Of a stretch of 64,000 nucleotides of DNA, positions 4,501-52,777 are shown one piece after another. Each line of letters begins with the position of its first letter. The first letter of the stretch is position 1. The notes beneath the pieces are model-generated. The model was not told the DNA's origin. It worked only from the letters and a program-made list of their open reading frames with translations, and searched no databases. A program made the position numbers and the translations under genes. The stretch covers positions 3,841,398 through 3,905,397 of the forward strand of contig NZ_CP100461.1 of the NCBI RefSeq assembly GCF_024228675.1, read 5' to 3'. The stretch comes from Salinigranum marinum. Its GTDB lineage: Archaea > Halobacteriota > Halobacteria > Halobacteriales > Haloferacaceae.

Positions 4501-5208
4501 CAGCCCGAGTCTGTCCTCCGCGCCGGCGTCGACGAGCGCGCGCCGCATCGCCGCCGCGCCGCCGCCGACGCCCGTGGCTGGAACCGCCTGTTTCAACTCG
4601 CGGAGCCGTCGCCGTGCGAGCACCGCCCGCTGGCCGCGCGTCACCGTCACGCGGTCGGTCGACCCGGGGACGACGACCGCGTCGACGCCGGCGTGGGTTC
4701 CCGTCTCGCCCGAGTAGGTGACCGCGATGTCGAGGCTGTCGTCGAACGCCCGCCGGAGATACGACACGACGCCGAGTGCCCGGGCCTCGTCGGGCGTTCC
4801 GATCCTGATCTGTCCCTCCGCGTCGAGGAGGTACTCGAGATCGGCCACCGGAACGTCGGGGCTGGCCTCCCCCGCGGAGCCGATGGACTCGTAGAGCCGC
4901 TGTTCGTAGCCGGCGTCGTCTTCGACGCGCCAGCCGACCTCCTCGATCTCACGTTCGAGCGTCGATTTGAACGACTCGATCGGCGTCGCGGTGCCGGGGT
5001 CGAACTCGTAGTCGGCCATGAACTGCTCGGAGCCGCTCCGGACCAGCTTCACGTAACAGCGGAGCCCGTTCCGGCCGGGGTCGTAGTAGAGCAGCAGGTC
5101 GGATTTGAAGTCGCGCTTGACGGACTCTTCGGTCACGTCGGCCGCGCTGCCGCTCGAATCGAACTGGAGCCGTCCGGTGCCTGCGGAGTAGATTCTGAGT
5201 CTGGTCAT
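1585..5208 (-). CDS. Multi-pass membrane protein with C-terminal PQQ-like beta-propeller
   Basis: The start chosen is the ATG at 5208 (MTRLRIYSAG), two bases after the upstream gene's stop; an upstream in-frame extension is Arg/His-rich and implausible. The product is about 1,207 residues. Residues 1-250 form a soluble alpha/beta region. Hydrophobic helices lie near 254-273 and 316-334, with a second hydrophobic block near 409-474. A basic Arg/Ser stretch (about 480-500) and a long acidic Gly/Ser/Asp linker follow. Residues of about 818-1207 hold repeated blades of the form DGTVYVATDDGTLHAIDAASG, typical of PQQ/BamB-type propellers, which usually serve as protein-interaction scaffolds. It is last in the tubulin-like locus. 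An odd number of membrane helices would put the soluble N-terminus and the propeller on opposite sides, but I cannot fix the count by eye. Confidence 0.8.
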   Translation of the reverse strand: MTRLRIYSAGTGRLQFDSSGSAADVTEESVKRDFKSDLLLYYDPGRNGLRCYVKLVRSGSEQFMADYEFDPGTATPIESFKSTLEREIEEVGWRVEDDAGYEQRLYESIGSAGEASPDVPVADLEYLLDAEGQIRIGTPDEARALGVVSYLRRAFDDSLDIAVTYSGETGTHAGVDAVVVPGSTDRVTVTRGQRAVLARRRLRELKQAVPATGVGGGAAAMRRALVDAGAEDRLGLAIDEQEASVPGAAAGQRNAVLTALVLVPLAVLLVVVRAGTETLLPALTRVQGFYLPLAETANGVLPIAVPQYLFDFTSWHVLVVSAVVIGVALVSTPPVQRTVTGLTGFSIPGLGGGSRGGGPTPSDRASAAVDELVALQRTGGDGGAKRDIATLLDEFGLEAGSQSTRARTALAVQAAGLLAGAIGAAVVFVVASQVAGVVFGLLIGNWALVLDLFMFGGVVAVVGVVGLAGVILAGDALGGNRRRSGRSRSPSRSRSTSTSTRGSVGGTGVAGPASRRSGGFDVGSFEKRVETNPHRAASQGPEALEALSAHSRPSPRSKRLANALLTLEQRVPDTEFRLSPSNRKLVQQHADEPSGSGMMDELVKGQPKQGRRDDTGTGTRGDSRAPADGSRRESADGRGESTGGDSGPEPGRDSGPEPGRDDAAPATDDGDADDFLYPAGDDGDDGTVDRLDVQGGDDSGGDVDPFGSRRTTTATDSEPATDADGPTAREPATVGDEPDTQPPVDGDAATESTTGSDVVSVGTTEPAGVGRSEASASDGEPADEATDGNADELTPSVGSPAQEPERTAGVDPTAQVGDASFSQFRYDAANTGSVAGVGRTVRTPAHAWEPVALGEECTTTPVVLGDSLVVGTRAGRLHAISRSAGDHEVVATPGAAADVELFASPAVVRDTVVVVTSVGEVIGYRLADGPRAREAWRADRRVTGPGSVATASPTVADGRLFVAGGEGTVHALDGRNGDAVWDEPYDAGAGITLAAPAVDDGTVYVATDDGTLHAIDAASGAGSWSTRLGPEPIWASPAVADGRLLVGNRSGTLYVVDAEGGAVRRKEAVGDEIVSSAAVHGERAYVVSNVGGRVSAEARGPTDDDDGASASPRAVVTAFDLEGRIERRWETDLDAMTISSPTVAGQGLFLGTNGGRLAALDCRTGESLWDDATDAGTRIESSVAAVDGALYVPDHDGTVWGLVDDHG

Positions 5209-5210
5209 TG

Positions 5211-7127
5211 TCAGCGTTCGAGGCGCTCGATGAGCTTGTCGGCTCGACGCAGGATGGTCGGCCGTTTCGTCGTGTCGATCGTGTAGTCCGCGTCGGTCTC
5301 CGGCGGCTCGTCGTTCGTGATCACGTACCAGAGGACGTAGACGCGTTCGAGGCCGAGCCCGCGGTAGAGCCACTCGAGTTCGTCTTCGAGCAGTTCGTCG
5401 TAGACGTACTCACAGAACTCCTCGTACTCGCGGGCCGCGAGCGAGCCCTCGTTTCGCTTCTCGAAGTCCGAGACGGCCCAATCGCCCATCGTCACGGCGA
5501 CGACGAAGTCCTTGTCGCGGTCGTCGCGGTACTGTCTGGCGAGTCGCTGGTACCAGCCGAGATACTCGTTCGAATCGGGTCGGTCGAAGTCGTTCTTGAC
5601 GTAGAACACGCCGTCGGAGTAGCTCCGGCTCCGGAGCGTCTGGCGGTCGAGGTCGATTCCGAGTTCGTCGGCGACCTCGCTCGCGGACTTCTCGCGACCG
5701 GGGTTGCGGACCACCTTGGCGTACGACGGCTCGTTGCCGCGGTCGATGATCGGCGCGATGAAGTCGTCGAGCGGGACGACGAAGACGATCCGGTCGGCGT
5801 GCTCGACGCAGTTGGCGACGGCGTCGGCGATGACGCTCCCGGCGATTGCCCGCCCGCGCTCGGACTCCTCGGAGAGCCGTCTGACCTCGTTGGTCGCCTC
5901 GGCCCACCCGTCGGTCGAATCGACCTCCGGGCTGCCGTAGCCGCCGCGGGAGCCGCGCCCGCCGCCGTCCGGCCCGTCGCTCTCGTCCTCGTGCTCCGAC
6001 TCGCCGTCGAGTTCCTCGCGGATCTGCTCGACCTCCTGGTCGACCTCGTCGGCGTCGCTGAACAGCGAGCGATCGCCCGCCGAACTCCCCCCGTCAGTCG
6101 CGGCGGTCTTCGGCGCGACCCGGTCGACGATGTCGTCGAGATGCTCGCCCGCGTAGTCGATGGTCTGGATCGACGTCTTCTCGGGGAACACCCCGCCGCG
6201 GACGTAGTTCATCCCGAGCAGGGAGATGGTGGTGGTGCCGGTCGCCGTCGGGAACTCGCCCTTCGAGATCATCCGGCTCAGGCTGTCGACGTTGCCGTCG
6301 TAGTTGAGCGCGACGTCGTCGTGTCCGAAGTCGAGCAGCGCGCGGTGGAGGCCGCCGAACGCGGCGCTCTTCCCGCTCCGCTGTGGGCCGAGCACGATCG
6401 TTCGGTTCTGGCTCTCGTAGCGCGTGAACCGCAGGAGTCCGCCGAGCAACAGCACCGAGCCGATGATGTCGACGAACAGCGCTCCCCCGACGAAGCCGTT
6501 GAACGCGAAGGGTTGGAGCACCCATCCCTCCGGATGGGCCTGCAGGATCGGGCTGTACGCGACGTGCGCCTCCACGAAGCCGAGGACGATCATGAGCAGG
6601 GCGAGCCTGAAGATCCACCGCGGTGCCCGGGGGAACTCCGCCCTGACGCCGGGGGTCACCGCGTCGCCGGCCGTCTGCGGGCGGATGCCGCCGAGCAGGA
6701 GGCCGAGCACGATTCCCGCGACGCCGACGATCGCCGACGCGGGGCCGAACCCGGCGATGAGCGGTTGAATAAGCAGTCCCTGCCCGAGCAGGATGACGGC
6801 GCTTCCGAGCCCGATCCCCCCGACCAGAATGAGTCCCTGGCCGCGCTTGAACGAGTCGAGCAACAGCGTCACGACGAGGCCGAGCGCGATCCCCGTCGGA
6901 AGGTAGTAGAACGTCTTTACGTCGACCCCCAAGATGTTGATCGCACCCCGGAAGAACTGCCGCACCTGCCCCCACGACTCCCAGCCGCGAGCGAGCATAT
7001 CGATCGAGAGGAACGCACCCACTCCAGCCAAGGCGACGTAGAGAAACAGTCGTTGCAGGCTCTTCCGGCGACGCCGCGAGAGGTTCAACCCCCCGAGCGG
7101 TCCGTCGCCCTGTCCTCGTGCCAACAT
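5211..7127 (-). CDS. Membrane-anchored P-loop GTPase-like protein
   Basis: The 638-residue product has about six hydrophobic helices in residues 26-233, followed by a soluble nucleotide-binding domain. GPQRSGKS at about 247-254 is a Walker A/G1 loop. TIDYAGEH at about 322-329 fits a Walker B/G3 (DxxG) motif. VTMGD after a hydrophobic strand sits where a G4 motif would be, but the canonical NKxD is absent. An acidic, Gly-rich insertion (SEHEDESDGPDGG) interrupts the domain. It lies two bases upstream of the propeller gene and 63 bases downstream of a paralogous gene that has lost the P-loop. A distinct GTPase is described as a genomic partner of one prokaryotic FtsZ/tubulin-like family; I infer that this is the counterpart. 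GTP rather than ATP as substrate is unproven. Confidence 0.75.
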   Translation of the reverse strand: MLARGQGDGPLGGLNLSRRRRKSLQRLFLYVALAGVGAFLSIDMLARGWESWGQVRQFFRGAINILGVDVKTFYYLPTGIALGLVVTLLLDSFKRGQGLILVGGIGLGSAVILLGQGLLIQPLIAGFGPASAIVGVAGIVLGLLLGGIRPQTAGDAVTPGVRAEFPRAPRWIFRLALLMIVLGFVEAHVAYSPILQAHPEGWVLQPFAFNGFVGGALFVDIIGSVLLLGGLLRFTRYESQNRTIVLGPQRSGKSAAFGGLHRALLDFGHDDVALNYDGNVDSLSRMISKGEFPTATGTTTISLLGMNYVRGGVFPEKTSIQTIDYAGEHLDDIVDRVAPKTAATDGGSSAGDRSLFSDADEVDQEVEQIREELDGESEHEDESDGPDGGGRGSRGGYGSPEVDSTDGWAEATNEVRRLSEESERGRAIAGSVIADAVANCVEHADRIVFVVPLDDFIAPIIDRGNEPSYAKVVRNPGREKSASEVADELGIDLDRQTLRSRSYSDGVFYVKNDFDRPDSNEYLGWYQRLARQYRDDRDKDFVVAVTMGDWAVSDFEKRNEGSLAAREYEEFCEYVYDELLEDELEWLYRGLGLERVYVLWYVITNDEPPETDADYTIDTTKRPTILRRADKLIERLER

Positions 7128-47805: not shown

Positions 47806-48153
47806 ATGTTCGAACAGTTCTCAAGCGGCTACTACCTCGGCCGCCTGTACGTCGAGCCGTACGACGGCGACCACGCTGTCATCCACGGAGACGACCACGT
47901 ACGGGTGAACGAGCACCTCTACACCACGGGCGAGGGTGTCGAGCGGACGGACGCCCCGCTGGTGATGAAACTGGACAGCGGTGGACACTTCCCGGTTCTC
48001 GGCGACGACGCCGTCCCGACAGGCACACTCGCCCTTCCCACACCGCTCGCGCCGGGGGACCTCCCCGACCGCCGCGAGGTGCTCCTCGCGAAGGCCGACC
48101 GGGCGACAGAACTCCTCCGGTACGCCGGTTGGACGCCGCCCGAGGGTCGCTGA
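47806..48153 (+). CDS. Conserved haloarchaeal protein (DUF5802-like)
   Basis: The ATG at 47806 gives 115 residues starting MFEQFSSGYYLGRLYVEP, which I recall as the hallmark of a small haloarchaea-specific family (DUF5802; number from memory). HVRVNEHLYTTGEGVERTDAPLVMKL and HFPVLGDDAVPTGTLALP follow. It is soluble and acidic, with no recognisable catalytic motif and unknown function. It has its own strong TATA box. Confidence 0.7.
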   Translation: MFEQFSSGYYLGRLYVEPYDGDHAVIHGDDHVRVNEHLYTTGEGVERTDAPLVMKLDSGGHFPVLGDDAVPTGTLALPTPLAPGDLPDRREVLLAKADRATELLRYAGWTPPEGR

Positions 48154-48190
48154 CGCGCACGAGGGTCGATCCTGATACTCGGGACCGATC

Positions 48191-48197
48191 GTATAAG
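48191..48197 (+). promoter_or_regulatory. TATA box of the Vms1-like gene
   Basis: GTATAAG is centred about 28 bases before the ATG at 48222, fixing the start despite an open frame upstream. Confidence 0.6.
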
Positions 48198-48221
48198 TTC
48201 CCTCCCCACGGTCTCGAACCC

Positions 48222-49106
48222 ATGCTCGACGAGTTGCTCGGCCGCGCCGAGCTGAAAGAGCGCATCGACGCCCTCGAAGCGGAACTCGACAGCTACGAGG
48301 CCCGCTACGAGGCCGAGTCCGAACGGCGTGCCGACGCGGTCCGAGCGCGACAGGAGGCCGAAGAGCGGGTCAACCGTCTCGAAGACCGCATCGCCGACCT
48401 CGAAGGCCGACTCGACCGCGACGAGGACGGAACAGAGGTCGCGTTCCGCGGCCGGGAGGCGCTCGCTGGGGGTCGACTCCGCGAGGTGTGGTCGCGGCTC
48501 CGCTCGCTCGACACCGACGCCGAGGGGGCGCTCACGGCGTTCGTCGACGACGGCCTCCCCGACCCGGTCGCCGCGGCGGTCGGCGACCGCGCGCCGCTCG
48601 TCCGTCGCGCCGCCCCCTGTCTCGTCTGCGCCGACGACGCCGGCCTCGTCGCGGTCGCGCTCGACCCGCCCTGTCCTCCCGCCCCGTTCGTCGCGTGGGA
48701 CGCGGGGTTTCGGATCGACGATGCGTGGGTTCTCCCCCAGGACGGCGACGCGCTCGCGCTCCTCCGGTCGGACCTGTTCGTCGTCGGCACCTACGACGAG
48801 GGGGAGTGGACCATCGCCGAGACGGTCGAGAGCGACGTCAAGAGCGCCCACTCGAAGGGCGGCTTCTCGCAGGGACGGTTCGAGCGCCGCCGCGACGCGC
48901 AGGTCGCCGAGCACGTCGACCGGGCGCGTTCCGCTCTGGACGGGGTCGACCGCGATCGGCTGCTGGTCGCCGGCGAGCGGACGGTCCTCGGTGCGTTCGA
49001 GGCGCGCGCGGATCACGTCGCCCGCGTCGACGCCAGCGGCGACCCCGAGGCGGCGTTCGAGGCCGCCGTCGAGGACTTCTTCACCACCCGGCTGTCGCTG
49101 CTGTGA
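48222..49106 (+). CDS. Vms1/Ankzf1-like (VLRF1) protein
   Basis: The 294-residue protein has an N-terminal coiled coil (about 8-68), then an eRF1-like domain. SAHSKGGFSQGRFERRR at about 208-224 is the VLRF1 signature; Gln217 corresponds to the glutamine that replaces the GGQ glutamine in Vms1/ANKZF1, which cleave peptidyl-tRNA on stalled ribosomes. A later segment (VAGERTVLGAF) fits the eRF1 core. I infer a ribosome-rescue nuclease or hydrolase. It lacks the zinc finger and ankyrin repeats of the eukaryotic forms. Confidence 0.85.
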   Translation: MLDELLGRAELKERIDALEAELDSYEARYEAESERRADAVRARQEAEERVNRLEDRIADLEGRLDRDEDGTEVAFRGREALAGGRLREVWSRLRSLDTDAEGALTAFVDDGLPDPVAAAVGDRAPLVRRAAPCLVCADDAGLVAVALDPPCPPAPFVAWDAGFRIDDAWVLPQDGDALALLRSDLFVVGTYDEGEWTIAETVESDVKSAHSKGGFSQGRFERRRDAQVAEHVDRARSALDGVDRDRLLVAGERTVLGAFEARADHVARVDASGDPEAAFEAAVEDFFTTRLSLL

Positions 49107-49549: not shown

Positions 49550-49559
49550 TTTTTAAGAA
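49550..49559 (+). promoter_or_regulatory. TATA box of the DgcN-DgcA-like operon
   Basis: TTTTTAAGAA is centred about 27 bases before the ATG at 49581, giving a leaderless transcript. Confidence 0.6.
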
Positions 49560-49580: not shown

Positions 49581-50630
49581 ATGAACGCCCAGCCGACGCG
49601 CGTGGCCGTCCTCGCCCACGACCTCTTTCCCCACCGTGCGAAGACCGCGACGGGCGTCCTCCGCTACGCCGACTACGACGTCGCCGCGGTCCTCGACCGC
49701 TCGAACCCCGGCACCCGAGCCAGCGACCACCTCTCGCTCCCCGACGGGCGGGACGCACCGATCGTCGAATCGATGGCCGACGCGCTCTCGGAGGGAGAAA
49801 TCGACGCGCTCGTCGTCGGCATCGCCCCCATCGGCGGCGGCTTCGACGAGTCGTGGCGGGGGGACGTCGAACGCGCGCTCGAAGCCGGTCTCGACGTGAT
49901 CTCCGGGTTGCACTACTTCCTCGCCGAGGACGACGAGTTCGCCGCCCTGGCCGAGGCACACGGCGCGACCATCCACGACGTCCGCAAGCCACACCCCGAC
50001 CTGACGGTGAGCGAGGGGCGCGCGAGCGAAGTCGACGCCGACGTCGTCCTCACCGTCGGAACGGACTGCTCCGTCGGGAAGATGACCGTCTCGCTCGAAC
50101 TCACCCGGGCGGCCCGCGAGCGGGGGATCGACGCCGGGTTCGTTCCAACGGGACAGACCGGTATCATGATCGCCGGGTGGGGCAACCCCATCGACCGCGT
50201 CGTGAGCGACTTCACCGCGGGTGCCGTCGAGGAGATGATCCTCGAGATGGGCGACACACACGACGTGCTGTTCGTCGAGGGGCAGGGTAGCATCGTCCAC
50301 CCGGCGTACTCCGCCGTGACCTGCGGCATCCTCCACGGCGCGATGCCCGACGCGATTGTGCTCTGTCACGTCGCGGGCCGCGAGGCGATCCACGGCTACG
50401 AGTCCACGGCGATTCCCGACCCCGGGACGTACGTCGACCTCTACGAAGACCTCGCCGGGCCGGTCCACCCCGGCGAGGTGGTCGCGGGCGCGGTCAACAC
50501 GTCGTCGATCGACTCCGACGCGGCCGCGCGTGAGGCGCTCGACGCGTTCGGCTCGCAGGTCGGGGGGCCGGCGACCGACCCTATCCGCTTCGACGCCGAC
50601 GAACTCCTCGACGCCGTGTTGGACGCATGA
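49581..50630 (+). CDS. DUF1611 protein, DgcN-like D-amino-acid N-acyltransferase candidate
   Basis: The 349-residue protein has an N-terminal Rossmann-like domain (VAVLAHDLFPHRAKTATGVLRY) and a P-loop-like domain, VGTDCSVGKMTVSLEL, followed by FVPTGQTGIMIAGWG and VEGQGSIVHPAYS. This is DUF1611. In marine bacteria a DUF1611 protein, DgcN, acetylates D-glutamate and its enolase-superfamily partner DgcA racemises the product. The next gene here overlaps by four bases and is of the DgcA type, so the same pathway is inferred. Older annotations call the family EBNA-1-like or epimerase. Confidence 0.8.
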   Translation: MNAQPTRVAVLAHDLFPHRAKTATGVLRYADYDVAAVLDRSNPGTRASDHLSLPDGRDAPIVESMADALSEGEIDALVVGIAPIGGGFDESWRGDVERALEAGLDVISGLHYFLAEDDEFAALAEAHGATIHDVRKPHPDLTVSEGRASEVDADVVLTVGTDCSVGKMTVSLELTRAARERGIDAGFVPTGQTGIMIAGWGNPIDRVVSDFTAGAVEEMILEMGDTHDVLFVEGQGSIVHPAYSAVTCGILHGAMPDAIVLCHVAGREAIHGYESTAIPDPGTYVDLYEDLAGPVHPGEVVAGAVNTSSIDSDAAAREALDAFGSQVGGPATDPIRFDADELLDAVLDA

Positions 50631-51667
50631 TCACGGGCGAGTTCGAGCGTGTCTCCCTGCCGCTGGCCGACGCCTTTACCATCTCCCGCGGCACCCAGGA
50701 CGTCGCCGAGAACGTCCTCGTCCGCCTCACCGACGAGGGCGGCATGACCGGCCACGGCGCGGCCGCGCCGTCGCCGCACTACGGCGAGACGGCCGACACC
50801 GTCGAGGCGGTCCTCCCCGACCTCCTTGACGTCGCCGAATCCGTCGGCGACCCGCACGCGCTCGATCGCATTGAGCGCCGCATGCACCACCGTGTCCGCG
50901 GCAACCCTGCCGCACGCGCCGCCGTCTCGGTCGCCCTCCACGACCTGGCGGCCAAGCGGCTCGGCGTCCCGCTCTACCGCATGTGGGGCCTCGACGCCGC
51001 TGAGTGCCCGCCGACGTCCTTCACGATCGGCCTCGATACCACGGAACGAGTCCGGGAGAAGACGGCCGACGCCGTCGAGGCGGGCTATTCGACCCTGAAA
51101 CTCAAACTCGGTACCGACCGCGACGCGGAACTCCTCGACGCGGTACGCGAGGCCGCCCCCGACGCCACCCTCCGCGTCGACGCCAACGAGGCGTGGACGC
51201 CCCACGAGGCCGTCGAAAAGTCACGGCTCCTGGCCGACCACGGCGTCGAGTTCGTCGAGCAGCCGATCCCGGCCGACCACCACGACCGGTTGCGGTTCGT
51301 CCACGAGCGCTCGGCGGTCCCGGTGGCGGTCGACGAGTCGGTCGTGACCCTCGCCGACGTCCCCCGGGTCGCCGACCGGTGTGACGTGGTGAACCTCAAG
51401 CTGATGAAGTGTGGTGGCCTCCGCGAGGCCCGCCGGATGATCCACACGGCCCGCGCGCACGGGCTGGAGGTGATGCTCGGCTGTATGGTCGAGACGAACG
51501 CCGCCATCGCCCCCGCCTGTCACCTCGCCCCGCTGCTCGACTACGCCGACCTCGACGGCGCGCTTCTCCTCGCCGACGAGGGGGACGCATACGACGGTCT
51601 CGACCTCTCCGACGGCGTGATCCGCCTGCCGGACGACCGGAGCGGGACTGGCGCGGAACCGATCTGA
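50627..51667 (+). CDS. Enolase-superfamily dipeptide epimerase/DgcA-like racemase
   Basis: This 346-residue muconate-lactonising-type enzyme racemises an amino acid derivative. Second-helix lysines of TLKLKLG (KxK), metal ligands in RVDANEAW, VEQPIP and AVDESVV, and the opposite lysine in LKLMKCGG are all in place. The N-terminal capping domain has the usual FTISRGTQDVAENVLVRL. The N-acyl-D-glutamate role is inferred from its ATGA overlap with the DUF1611 gene; without that context, L-Ala-D/L-Glu epimerase would be the default guess. Confidence 0.88.
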   Translation: MITGEFERVSLPLADAFTISRGTQDVAENVLVRLTDEGGMTGHGAAAPSPHYGETADTVEAVLPDLLDVAESVGDPHALDRIERRMHHRVRGNPAARAAVSVALHDLAAKRLGVPLYRMWGLDAAECPPTSFTIGLDTTERVREKTADAVEAGYSTLKLKLGTDRDAELLDAVREAAPDATLRVDANEAWTPHEAVEKSRLLADHGVEFVEQPIPADHHDRLRFVHERSAVPVAVDESVVTLADVPRVADRCDVVNLKLMKCGGLREARRMIHTARAHGLEVMLGCMVETNAAIAPACHLAPLLDYADLDGALLLADEGDAYDGLDLSDGVIRLPDDRSGTGAEPI

Positions 51668-52080: not shown

Positions 52081-52252
52081 GTACCGGAGCAATCGATAGG
52101 TTCGTGCGATTCATCCCCAGTAGTTGGTAGATGTAGCGTGCGAGACACAAAGCGCGAGTCGGTCACGAGGCCAGCCAGTCCTCGCCGTTGTTGTCCAGCT
52201 TCGTCGGGTGCCGCCGAATGGCCATACGACCAGTAGCCCAACACTGAGTACG

Positions 52253-52522
52253 ATGGCCAGTTCGACTCGGGACGGCAACGGTCACGACGGTGAGATCCGT
52301 CTCTGGCAGGAGGACGACTGGTGGATCGCAAAGGACGTGGAAACGGGCGTTACGACACAGGGCGAGTCCAGAGCGGCAGCGCTAGAGAACCTCGACGACG
52401 CAGTGGCGCTGCGCGACGGTGAGCGTGGGCGCGCGCCGACCGACGAGGAACTCCGCACGGCGAGAATCGATCCCGCTCACAACACCACGGACGAGCGCGA
52501 ATCGCCGGACGTCCTCGACTGA
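52253..52522 (+). CDS. HicB-family antitoxin
   Basis: The ATG at 52253 gives 89 residues. EIRLWQEDDWWIAKDVETGVTTQGESRAAALENLDDAVAL (shown by landmarks WWIAKD and TQGESRAAALENL) is the partial RNase-H-like fold of HicB, which in type II systems neutralises HicA. The usual C-terminal DNA-binding helix is absent, as in many haloarchaeal HicB proteins. It ends three bases before the HicA-like gene. It sits in a degraded stretch next to a pseudogene. Confidence 0.85.
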   Translation: MASSTRDGNGHDGEIRLWQEDDWWIAKDVETGVTTQGESRAAALENLDDAVALRDGERGRAPTDEELRTARIDPAHNTTDERESPDVLD

Positions 52523-52525
52523 TCG

Positions 52526-52777
52526 ATGGGTCGGCGAACGTTCTCTGGGATGGCAGTCGTGAAGGTGCTGGTGAACACGGGCGGGTTCGAGTGGCGTCGA
52601 ACGACCGGAGACGACGCCCAACTGTACTACGAACACCCAACGAATGAGACCGATCGCCGACAGGTGACGGTCCCGCTGCACGACGAACTCCGGACCGGGG
52701 AGATCCGCGACATCGCCGAGAGCGCCGGGGCAAACGGTTTCGACGCGTTCTGCGAGTTGATCGACCGGAACGCCTGA
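52526..52777 (+). CDS. HicA-family toxin homologue lacking the usual catalytic histidine
   Basis: This 83-residue protein has the dsRBD-like HicA/YcfA fold: TFSGMAVVKVLVNTGG, LYYEHPTNETDRRQVTVPLHDELRTGEIRDIAESAG (landmarks YEHP and TVPLHDEL). HicA normally reads GSHH or GSHL after the first strand, the histidine being needed for mRNA cleavage; here the stretch is TTGDDAQL. The reading frame is intact, so loss of activity by substitution is likely. It is co-transcribed with the HicB gene. Confidence 0.85.
   Translation: MGRRTFSGMAVVKVLVNTGGFEWRRTTGDDAQLYYEHPTNETDRRQVTVPLHDELRTGEIRDIAESAGANGFDAFCELIDRNA

Follow-up and report, generated by a model that had tools for sequence, protein, structure and literature searches.

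A haloarchaeal DUF1611–racemase gene pair related to DgcN-DgcA, with a putative role in D-glutamate salvage

In Salinigranum marinum a gene for a DUF1611 protein is followed directly by one for an enolase-superfamily racemase, an arrangement that the original prediction read as a DgcN-DgcA pathway for D-glutamate. Does the pair salvage D-glutamate, or do the two proteins serve another substrate? We examined this in a 64,000-nucleotide stretch of contig NZ_CP100461.1 (the window, to which all positions refer) and by comparison with other genomes, models and structures.

The gene pair and its distribution

Both genes lie on the plus strand and start with ATG. The first (49581-50630; 349 aa) matches Pfam PF17396 and PF07755 and the NCBIfam DgcN family; the second (50627-51667; 346 aa; PF13378 and PF02746) encodes a racemase or epimerase of the muconate-lactonizing subgroup that is DgcA-like or dipeptide-epimerase-like. 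Both open frames were found as first described, including their four-base overlap: the sequence reads ATGA at 50627-50630 (plus strand), where the stop codon of DUF1611 overlaps the start codon of the racemase, and translation of the two genes is likely to be coupled there. A TATA-like element, TTTTTAAG, can be read on the same strand at 49550-49557; it points to an archaeal promoter whose transcript would have little or no leader. Because this element lies 24-31 nt 5′ of the first ATG, the two genes probably form one leaderless operon. A sigma-70 promoter scan gave no match, such a scan being blind to archaeal promoters. At a G+C content of ~70%, with many shadow ORFs, open-frame length alone is weak evidence for genes; the pair is nevertheless accepted as genuine because its Pfam matches are far beyond chance. 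The assignment of the DNA to a haloarchaeon agrees with the racemase tree, in which the nearest named relatives come from Halorubrum and Halobaculum.

Around the pair the window holds genes for a DUF2071 protein, an alcohol dehydrogenase, a DUF5802 protein and, upstream at 47931-49103 (plus strand), an acVLRF1 release-factor-like protein. Just 3′ of the pair, on the same strand, come a DUF7387 gene (52124-52519) and a HicA-like gene (52526-52774), which likely form a toxin-antitoxin pair. When other loci were compared, 25 of 42 had a relative of the ORF in the acVLRF1 position, a count that includes the window. Among the ten neighbouring ORFs scanned no deacylase, transporter or regulator, those of LysR type included, was found; in the missing LysR neighbour the window pair differs from that of Vibrio pelagius.

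The pair is ordinary among haloarchaea. In a class sample of 194 haloarchaeal genomes, DUF1611 matches (E 1e-3) were found in 179, of which 176 were strong and three weak (G037, G104, G183), and a racemase orthologue (E 1e-45, a threshold of our own choosing) was found in 174. Both genes occur together in 174 genomes, DUF1611 alone in two (G021, G161) and the racemase alone in none; the 18 genomes counted as having neither include the three with weak DUF1611 matches. These 18 are spread over 10 genus codes; under three of the codes there are pair-bearing genomes as well. Adjacency was counted on smaller sets than the 194 genomes surveyed for presence: in the class sample, 29 of the 30 DUF1611 loci with the best scores have the racemase directly 3′ of DUF1611, and so do 38 of 42 named haloarchaeal loci, the latter count leaving out L057, where the racemase is cut by the contig end, and L093-L098, which carry a second type of pair. 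The exception in the first set is L034, in genome G180, where a racemase orthologue is present elsewhere in the genome. In the second set the exceptions are three Halovenus loci (L067, L071, L075) and one from Saliphagus (L079), each with a DUF1611 gene and no adjoining racemase. The contig of L057 is labelled as a Bacteroidetes MAG; its pair (5114-6357) is of the haloarchaeal type, with 64% identity, and the contig is probably misbinned.

Adjacency together with joint presence and loss makes a common function of the two proteins very likely. That they are functionally unrelated and adjacent by chance is highly improbable: the few genomes that keep DUF1611 without an adjoining racemase could be read in this way, but the adjacency counts, the joint absence from all 18 genomes without a strong DUF1611 match and the recurrence of the same pairing in proteobacteria and bacterial MAGs speak against it, and chance adjacency was rejected on the counts and the joint loss, the Fisher value for the latter taking no account of relatedness among the genomes.

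So wide a distribution bears on the kind of function as well. With both genes in 174 of 194 genomes, housekeeping is a closer fit than optional catabolism; the ten neighbouring ORFs yielded no catabolic or transport genes, and the release-factor-like acVLRF1 family adjoins the pair in many haloarchaea. These features would fit a near-universal clean-up function and not one of feeding on debris of bacteria. Its target would be some other D-amino acid, N-acylated or peptide-linked, such as D-aspartate or a cell product that has been damaged or racemised. We consider such a role improbable, given that the closest characterised pair, by its NCBIfam family names, acts on D-glutamate, and that 18 of the 194 genomes live without both genes.

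The DUF1611 protein

The DUF1611 protein comprises a Rossmann-like N-terminal half (PF17396; 104.9 bits against a gathering threshold of 22.6, E 3e-30) and a P-loop C-terminal half (PF07755; 248.4 bits against 25, E 5.4e-74), with the motif GTDCSVGKM at residues 160-168. Its top NCBIfam family is DgcN (NF041892), at 256.9 bits against an equivalog cut-off of 480 that the annotated DgcN proteins of Vibrio (507.7) and Ruegeria (551.4) both pass. The predicted model (pLDDT 95.0) is matched by the solved DUF1611 proteins 2obn (Z 45.6), 2g0t (Z 39.9) and 7xrj (Z 38.2); the last, titled N-acetyltransferase DgcN, superimposes over 329 aligned residues with an rmsd of 2.9 and 34% identity, so that the window protein has the DgcN fold.

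The next structural matches, at about Z 14, span only residues from ~141 onward and are P-loop NTPases: SRP54, cobyrinic acid diamide synthase, ParA-type proteins and dethiobiotin synthetase. A P-loop NTPase fold is odd for a protein named N-acetyltransferase, and no GNAT entry appeared among the 50 matches listed in either structure search of the model. P-loop NTPases usually have a Mg-binding Ser or Thr directly after the P-loop Lys. Here K167 is invariant in 35 of 35 sequences and the residue that follows is Met (168) in the window and Leu, Lys or Arg elsewhere, never Ser or Thr. The P-loop may thus hold a phosphate group, for instance that of CoA, without the usual Mg-NTP chemistry.

In a tree of 49 DUF1611 sequences, the bootstrap of which was not fully settled, the haloarchaeal proteins form a clade (98/89) separate from bacterial DUF1611 proteins including DgcN (98/95), and DgcN forms a clade of its own (100/100). 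A second haloarchaeal DUF1611 type groups with 2g0t (100/97).

Relatives and residues of the racemase

Pfam places the racemase clearly (MR_MLE_C, E 1.2e-43; MR_MLE_N, E 1.6e-13), and its top NCBIfam family is DgcA (NF042940), which leads the next epimerase model by 60 bits. The score of 256.4 bits is again below the equivalog cut-off, here 400, which the annotated DgcA proteins of Vibrio (416.2) and Ruegeria (507.9) pass. Other racemases behave like that of the window on this model, two from haloarchaea scoring 260.2 and 267.2 and four from bacterial MAGs 207-227. Two models of L-Ala-D/L-Glu epimerases also stay below their cut-offs (PRK15129, 195.7 vs 343; NF041118, 161.3 vs 500), and Vibrio DgcA passes the YcjG-type epimerase model as well as its own (365.2 vs 343). 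For N-succinylamino acid racemase/o-succinylbenzoate synthase the scores are likewise below the menC cut-offs (TIGR01928, 140.1 vs 200.65; TIGR01927, 92.1 vs 130.55).

The nearest solved relative is a dipeptide epimerase of Bacteroides thetaiotaomicron (3iji/3ijq), both by sequence (228 bits) and by Foldseek, in which the best match of the predicted model (pLDDT 96.4) was 3iji, solved with L-Ala-D-Glu (TM 0.93). In a second structure comparison an N-succinyl-Arg/Lys racemase scored close to several dipeptide epimerases (Z 49.0 to 46.6 for the group), so that the racemase fold does not pick out the substrate.

In a tree of 54 racemases the window protein nests among haloarchaea (100/97) and outside the DgcA clade. 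The haloarchaeal proteins group with 3iji and with five racemases from bacterial MAGs (95/86); the sister group of this assemblage (99/96) unites bacterial DgcA with E. coli YcjG (100/100). Among clades chosen for testing after the tree was seen, one of haloarchaeal and DgcA proteins that excludes YcjG was rejected (p-AU 1.2e-108); haloarchaea with DgcA and YcjG to the exclusion of 3iji and the MAGs (p-AU 0.123) and haloarchaea with 3iji alone (p-AU 0.236) were not rejected. Grouping with Ala-Glu epimerases, together with a lack of activity on D-glutamate, had originally been named as evidence against the pathway. The racemase does join the Bacteroides dipeptide epimerase, but the grouping discriminates poorly because bacterial DgcA itself shares a clade with the epimerase YcjG; phylogeny alone was dropped as decisive for the substrate for the same reason.

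The original claim that the catalytic residues are intact holds throughout. K158, K160, D185, E211, D236, K258 and D308 are identical in all 51 racemase-like rows tallied of the 54 aligned (L094b, L096b and L097b being left out), and D310 is common to all of these except the outgroup 2zc8, which is without the second Asp of the DxD pair. At K158, K160, D185, E211, D236 and K258 the window racemase equals 13 of 13 DgcA proteins. From the enolase superfamily we take K158 and K160 to be the KxK lysines, D185, E211 and D236 the metal ligands and K258 the opposite lysine. In epimerases the DxD pair (D308, D310) binds the amino end of the dipeptide; as a marker to split dipeptide epimerases from DgcA it was dropped, all 13 DgcA rows having it. 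Arg 21 of the 20s loop is found in 17 of 17 haloarchaeal racemases, in 13 of 13 DgcA proteins, in YcjG and in three of five MAG rows, whereas 3iji has Thr. Position 260 is Met in the window and in 16 of 17 haloarchaeal racemases as against Asp in 13 of 13 DgcA proteins; position 289, which is Glu in most epimerases and in 14 of the 17 haloarchaeal proteins, is Gly in 10 of 13 DgcA proteins. Thus the window racemase has one likely substrate-loop residue in common with DgcA and YcjG, and others with dipeptide epimerases. YcjG (1jpd), an L-Ala-D/L-Glu epimerase, is like the window racemase in its catalytic residues, R21 and DxD, and unlike it in belonging to the DgcA clade and in the low PRK15129 score of the window protein.

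These results also give substance to another reading, in which the racemase is a dipeptide epimerase, for L-Ala-D/L-Glu or a related substrate, acting on murein-derived or other dipeptides with a D-residue, and the DUF1611 protein has that dipeptide or its product as substrate. The relationship to 3iji/3ijq by sequence, fold and clade, the retained DxD pair and the Glu at position 289 all favour it, but both epimerase models score under the DgcA model and the placement with 3iji over DgcA plus YcjG is not significant at the p-AU of 0.123. We regard this reading as unlikely.

Substrate and pathway

A further point against dipeptide epimerisation is the supply of substrate. No match to NlpC/P60 (PF00877) was found in the genome, and within the class the family is confined to 16 of 194 genomes, well short of the number with the pair, so that the usual source of L-Ala-D-Glu would be missing; this makes it less likely that murein dipeptides are what the pair handles in general. 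To our knowledge, haloarchaea themselves have no murein.

The peptidoglycan-feeding setting belongs to the second haloarchaeal pair. This pair, a DUF1611 gene followed by a gene for a Thermotoga-type dipeptide epimerase, is found on haloarchaeal plasmids and some chromosomes (L042:3875-9911, L093, L094, L096, L097, L098). On the Halorussus halophilus plasmid (L042) it follows an NlpC/P60 gene and lies near dacB, and at L094 and L096-L098 one further enolase-superfamily gene lies just 5′ of it. It resembles the window pair in being a DUF1611 gene followed by an enolase-superfamily epimerase gene, and differs in its peptidoglycan-hydrolase setting and in its clades, the L042 DUF1611 protein grouping with 2g0t and the epimerase with 2zad/3u9i. 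That a DUF1611 partner is annotated as a dipeptide epimerase beside NlpC/P60 and dacB is nonetheless a point in favour of dipeptide epimerisation by the window pair. On a Deinococcus peraridilitoris plasmid (L124:2984-6038), genes for an M20 hydrolase, an NlpC/P60 protein and a dipeptide epimerase that has 41% identity with the window racemase follow an ABC transporter; no DUF1611 gene is annotated close by.

These associations could be drawn together in a more general scheme, which we find rather unlikely. DUF1611 would be a P-loop enzyme teamed with various enzymes of the dipeptide-epimerase type: those of the lineage found in haloarchaea and some bacteria, DgcA/YcjG in proteobacteria, and the Thermotoga type beside NlpC/P60. 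The haloarchaeal pair would then have a core function on peptide-linked D-glutamate or another acidic D-residue, its P-loop binding the acyl or peptide moiety, rather than feeding on free D-glutamate.

With moderate confidence we prefer to read the pair as a haloarchaeal DUF1611-racemase operon that salvages D-glutamate, its putative substrate, as DgcN-DgcA does. The DUF1611 protein would acylate the amino group of D-glutamate, most likely with acetyl-CoA, whose phosphates may lie in the P-loop. The racemase would then invert the alpha carbon of N-acyl-D-glutamate, K160 and K258 serving as the two catalytic bases and D185, E211 and D236 binding Mg2+, and an M20-family deacylase encoded elsewhere would release L-glutamate. 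The genome has fourteen M20-family stretches. Among the best eight, one passes the cut-off for the ArgE/DapE deacylase subfamily (248 vs 217.6) and another that of a desuccinylase model (521.8 vs 369), while a third, a LysW hydrolase, scores 519.7 against 363. Since none of these is near the pair or specific for acetyl-glutamate, the deacylation step has candidates only.

D-Glutamate salvage is supported by the top NCBIfam matches to DgcN and DgcA, the end-to-end homology with DgcN, R21, the adjacency and the joint loss. Also in its favour are the ArgE/DapE-type M20 deacylases, the lack of NlpC/P60, the lack of any member of the Asp/Glu racemase family in the genome, and the title of a published paper that is taken up below. 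Counting against it are the scores below cut-off, the position of the racemase, which falls not in the DgcA clade but closer to the Bacteroides dipeptide epimerase, the retained DxD pair (though DgcA has it too), the lack of a deacylase, transporter or LysR neighbour, and the lack of an acetyl-glutamate-specific enzyme among the deacylase candidates. The original DgcN-DgcA reading therefore stands as to top family matches, conserved pairing and joint loss, and does not stand as to equivalog membership or a clade with DgcA only. Likewise, comparison with the characterised proteins (NF041892, NF042940, 7xrj) bore out the same two gene families, gene order, folds, catalytic residues and R21; the window pair is unlike DgcN-DgcA in falling below both cut-offs, in forming clades of its own in both trees and, in the racemase, at positions 260 and 289. 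Because the score and clade tests failed, we file the pair in neither equivalog.

DgcN and DgcA are reportedly widespread in Halobacteria, as a 2023 paper is said to have found. Our literature searches found no paper for DUF1611 together with haloarchaea or for N-acetyl-D-glutamate together with archaea, and a search on D-amino acids, glutamate and racemases in haloarchaea listed a single paper, on aminotransferases. By its title, a paper in ISME J (2023) already places a D-glutamate pathway in halophilic archaea in print. Excerpts of other papers name dgcN as the key gene of the D-glutamate racemisation pathway (PMC12363236, PMC10845958) or give background on dipeptide epimerases (PMC3605383, PMC8142540, PMC13338154). 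With the pathway itself known and the pair nearly universal in the class, what the present analysis adds is a warning on name transfer: because the haloarchaeal branch falls outside the tested equivalogs, with a dipeptide epimerase as the nearer relative, an assay should come before the names DgcN and DgcA are applied to it. If the preferred reading is true, nearly every haloarchaeon could reuse D-glutamate from the walls of bacteria in brines, by a route already proposed in print.
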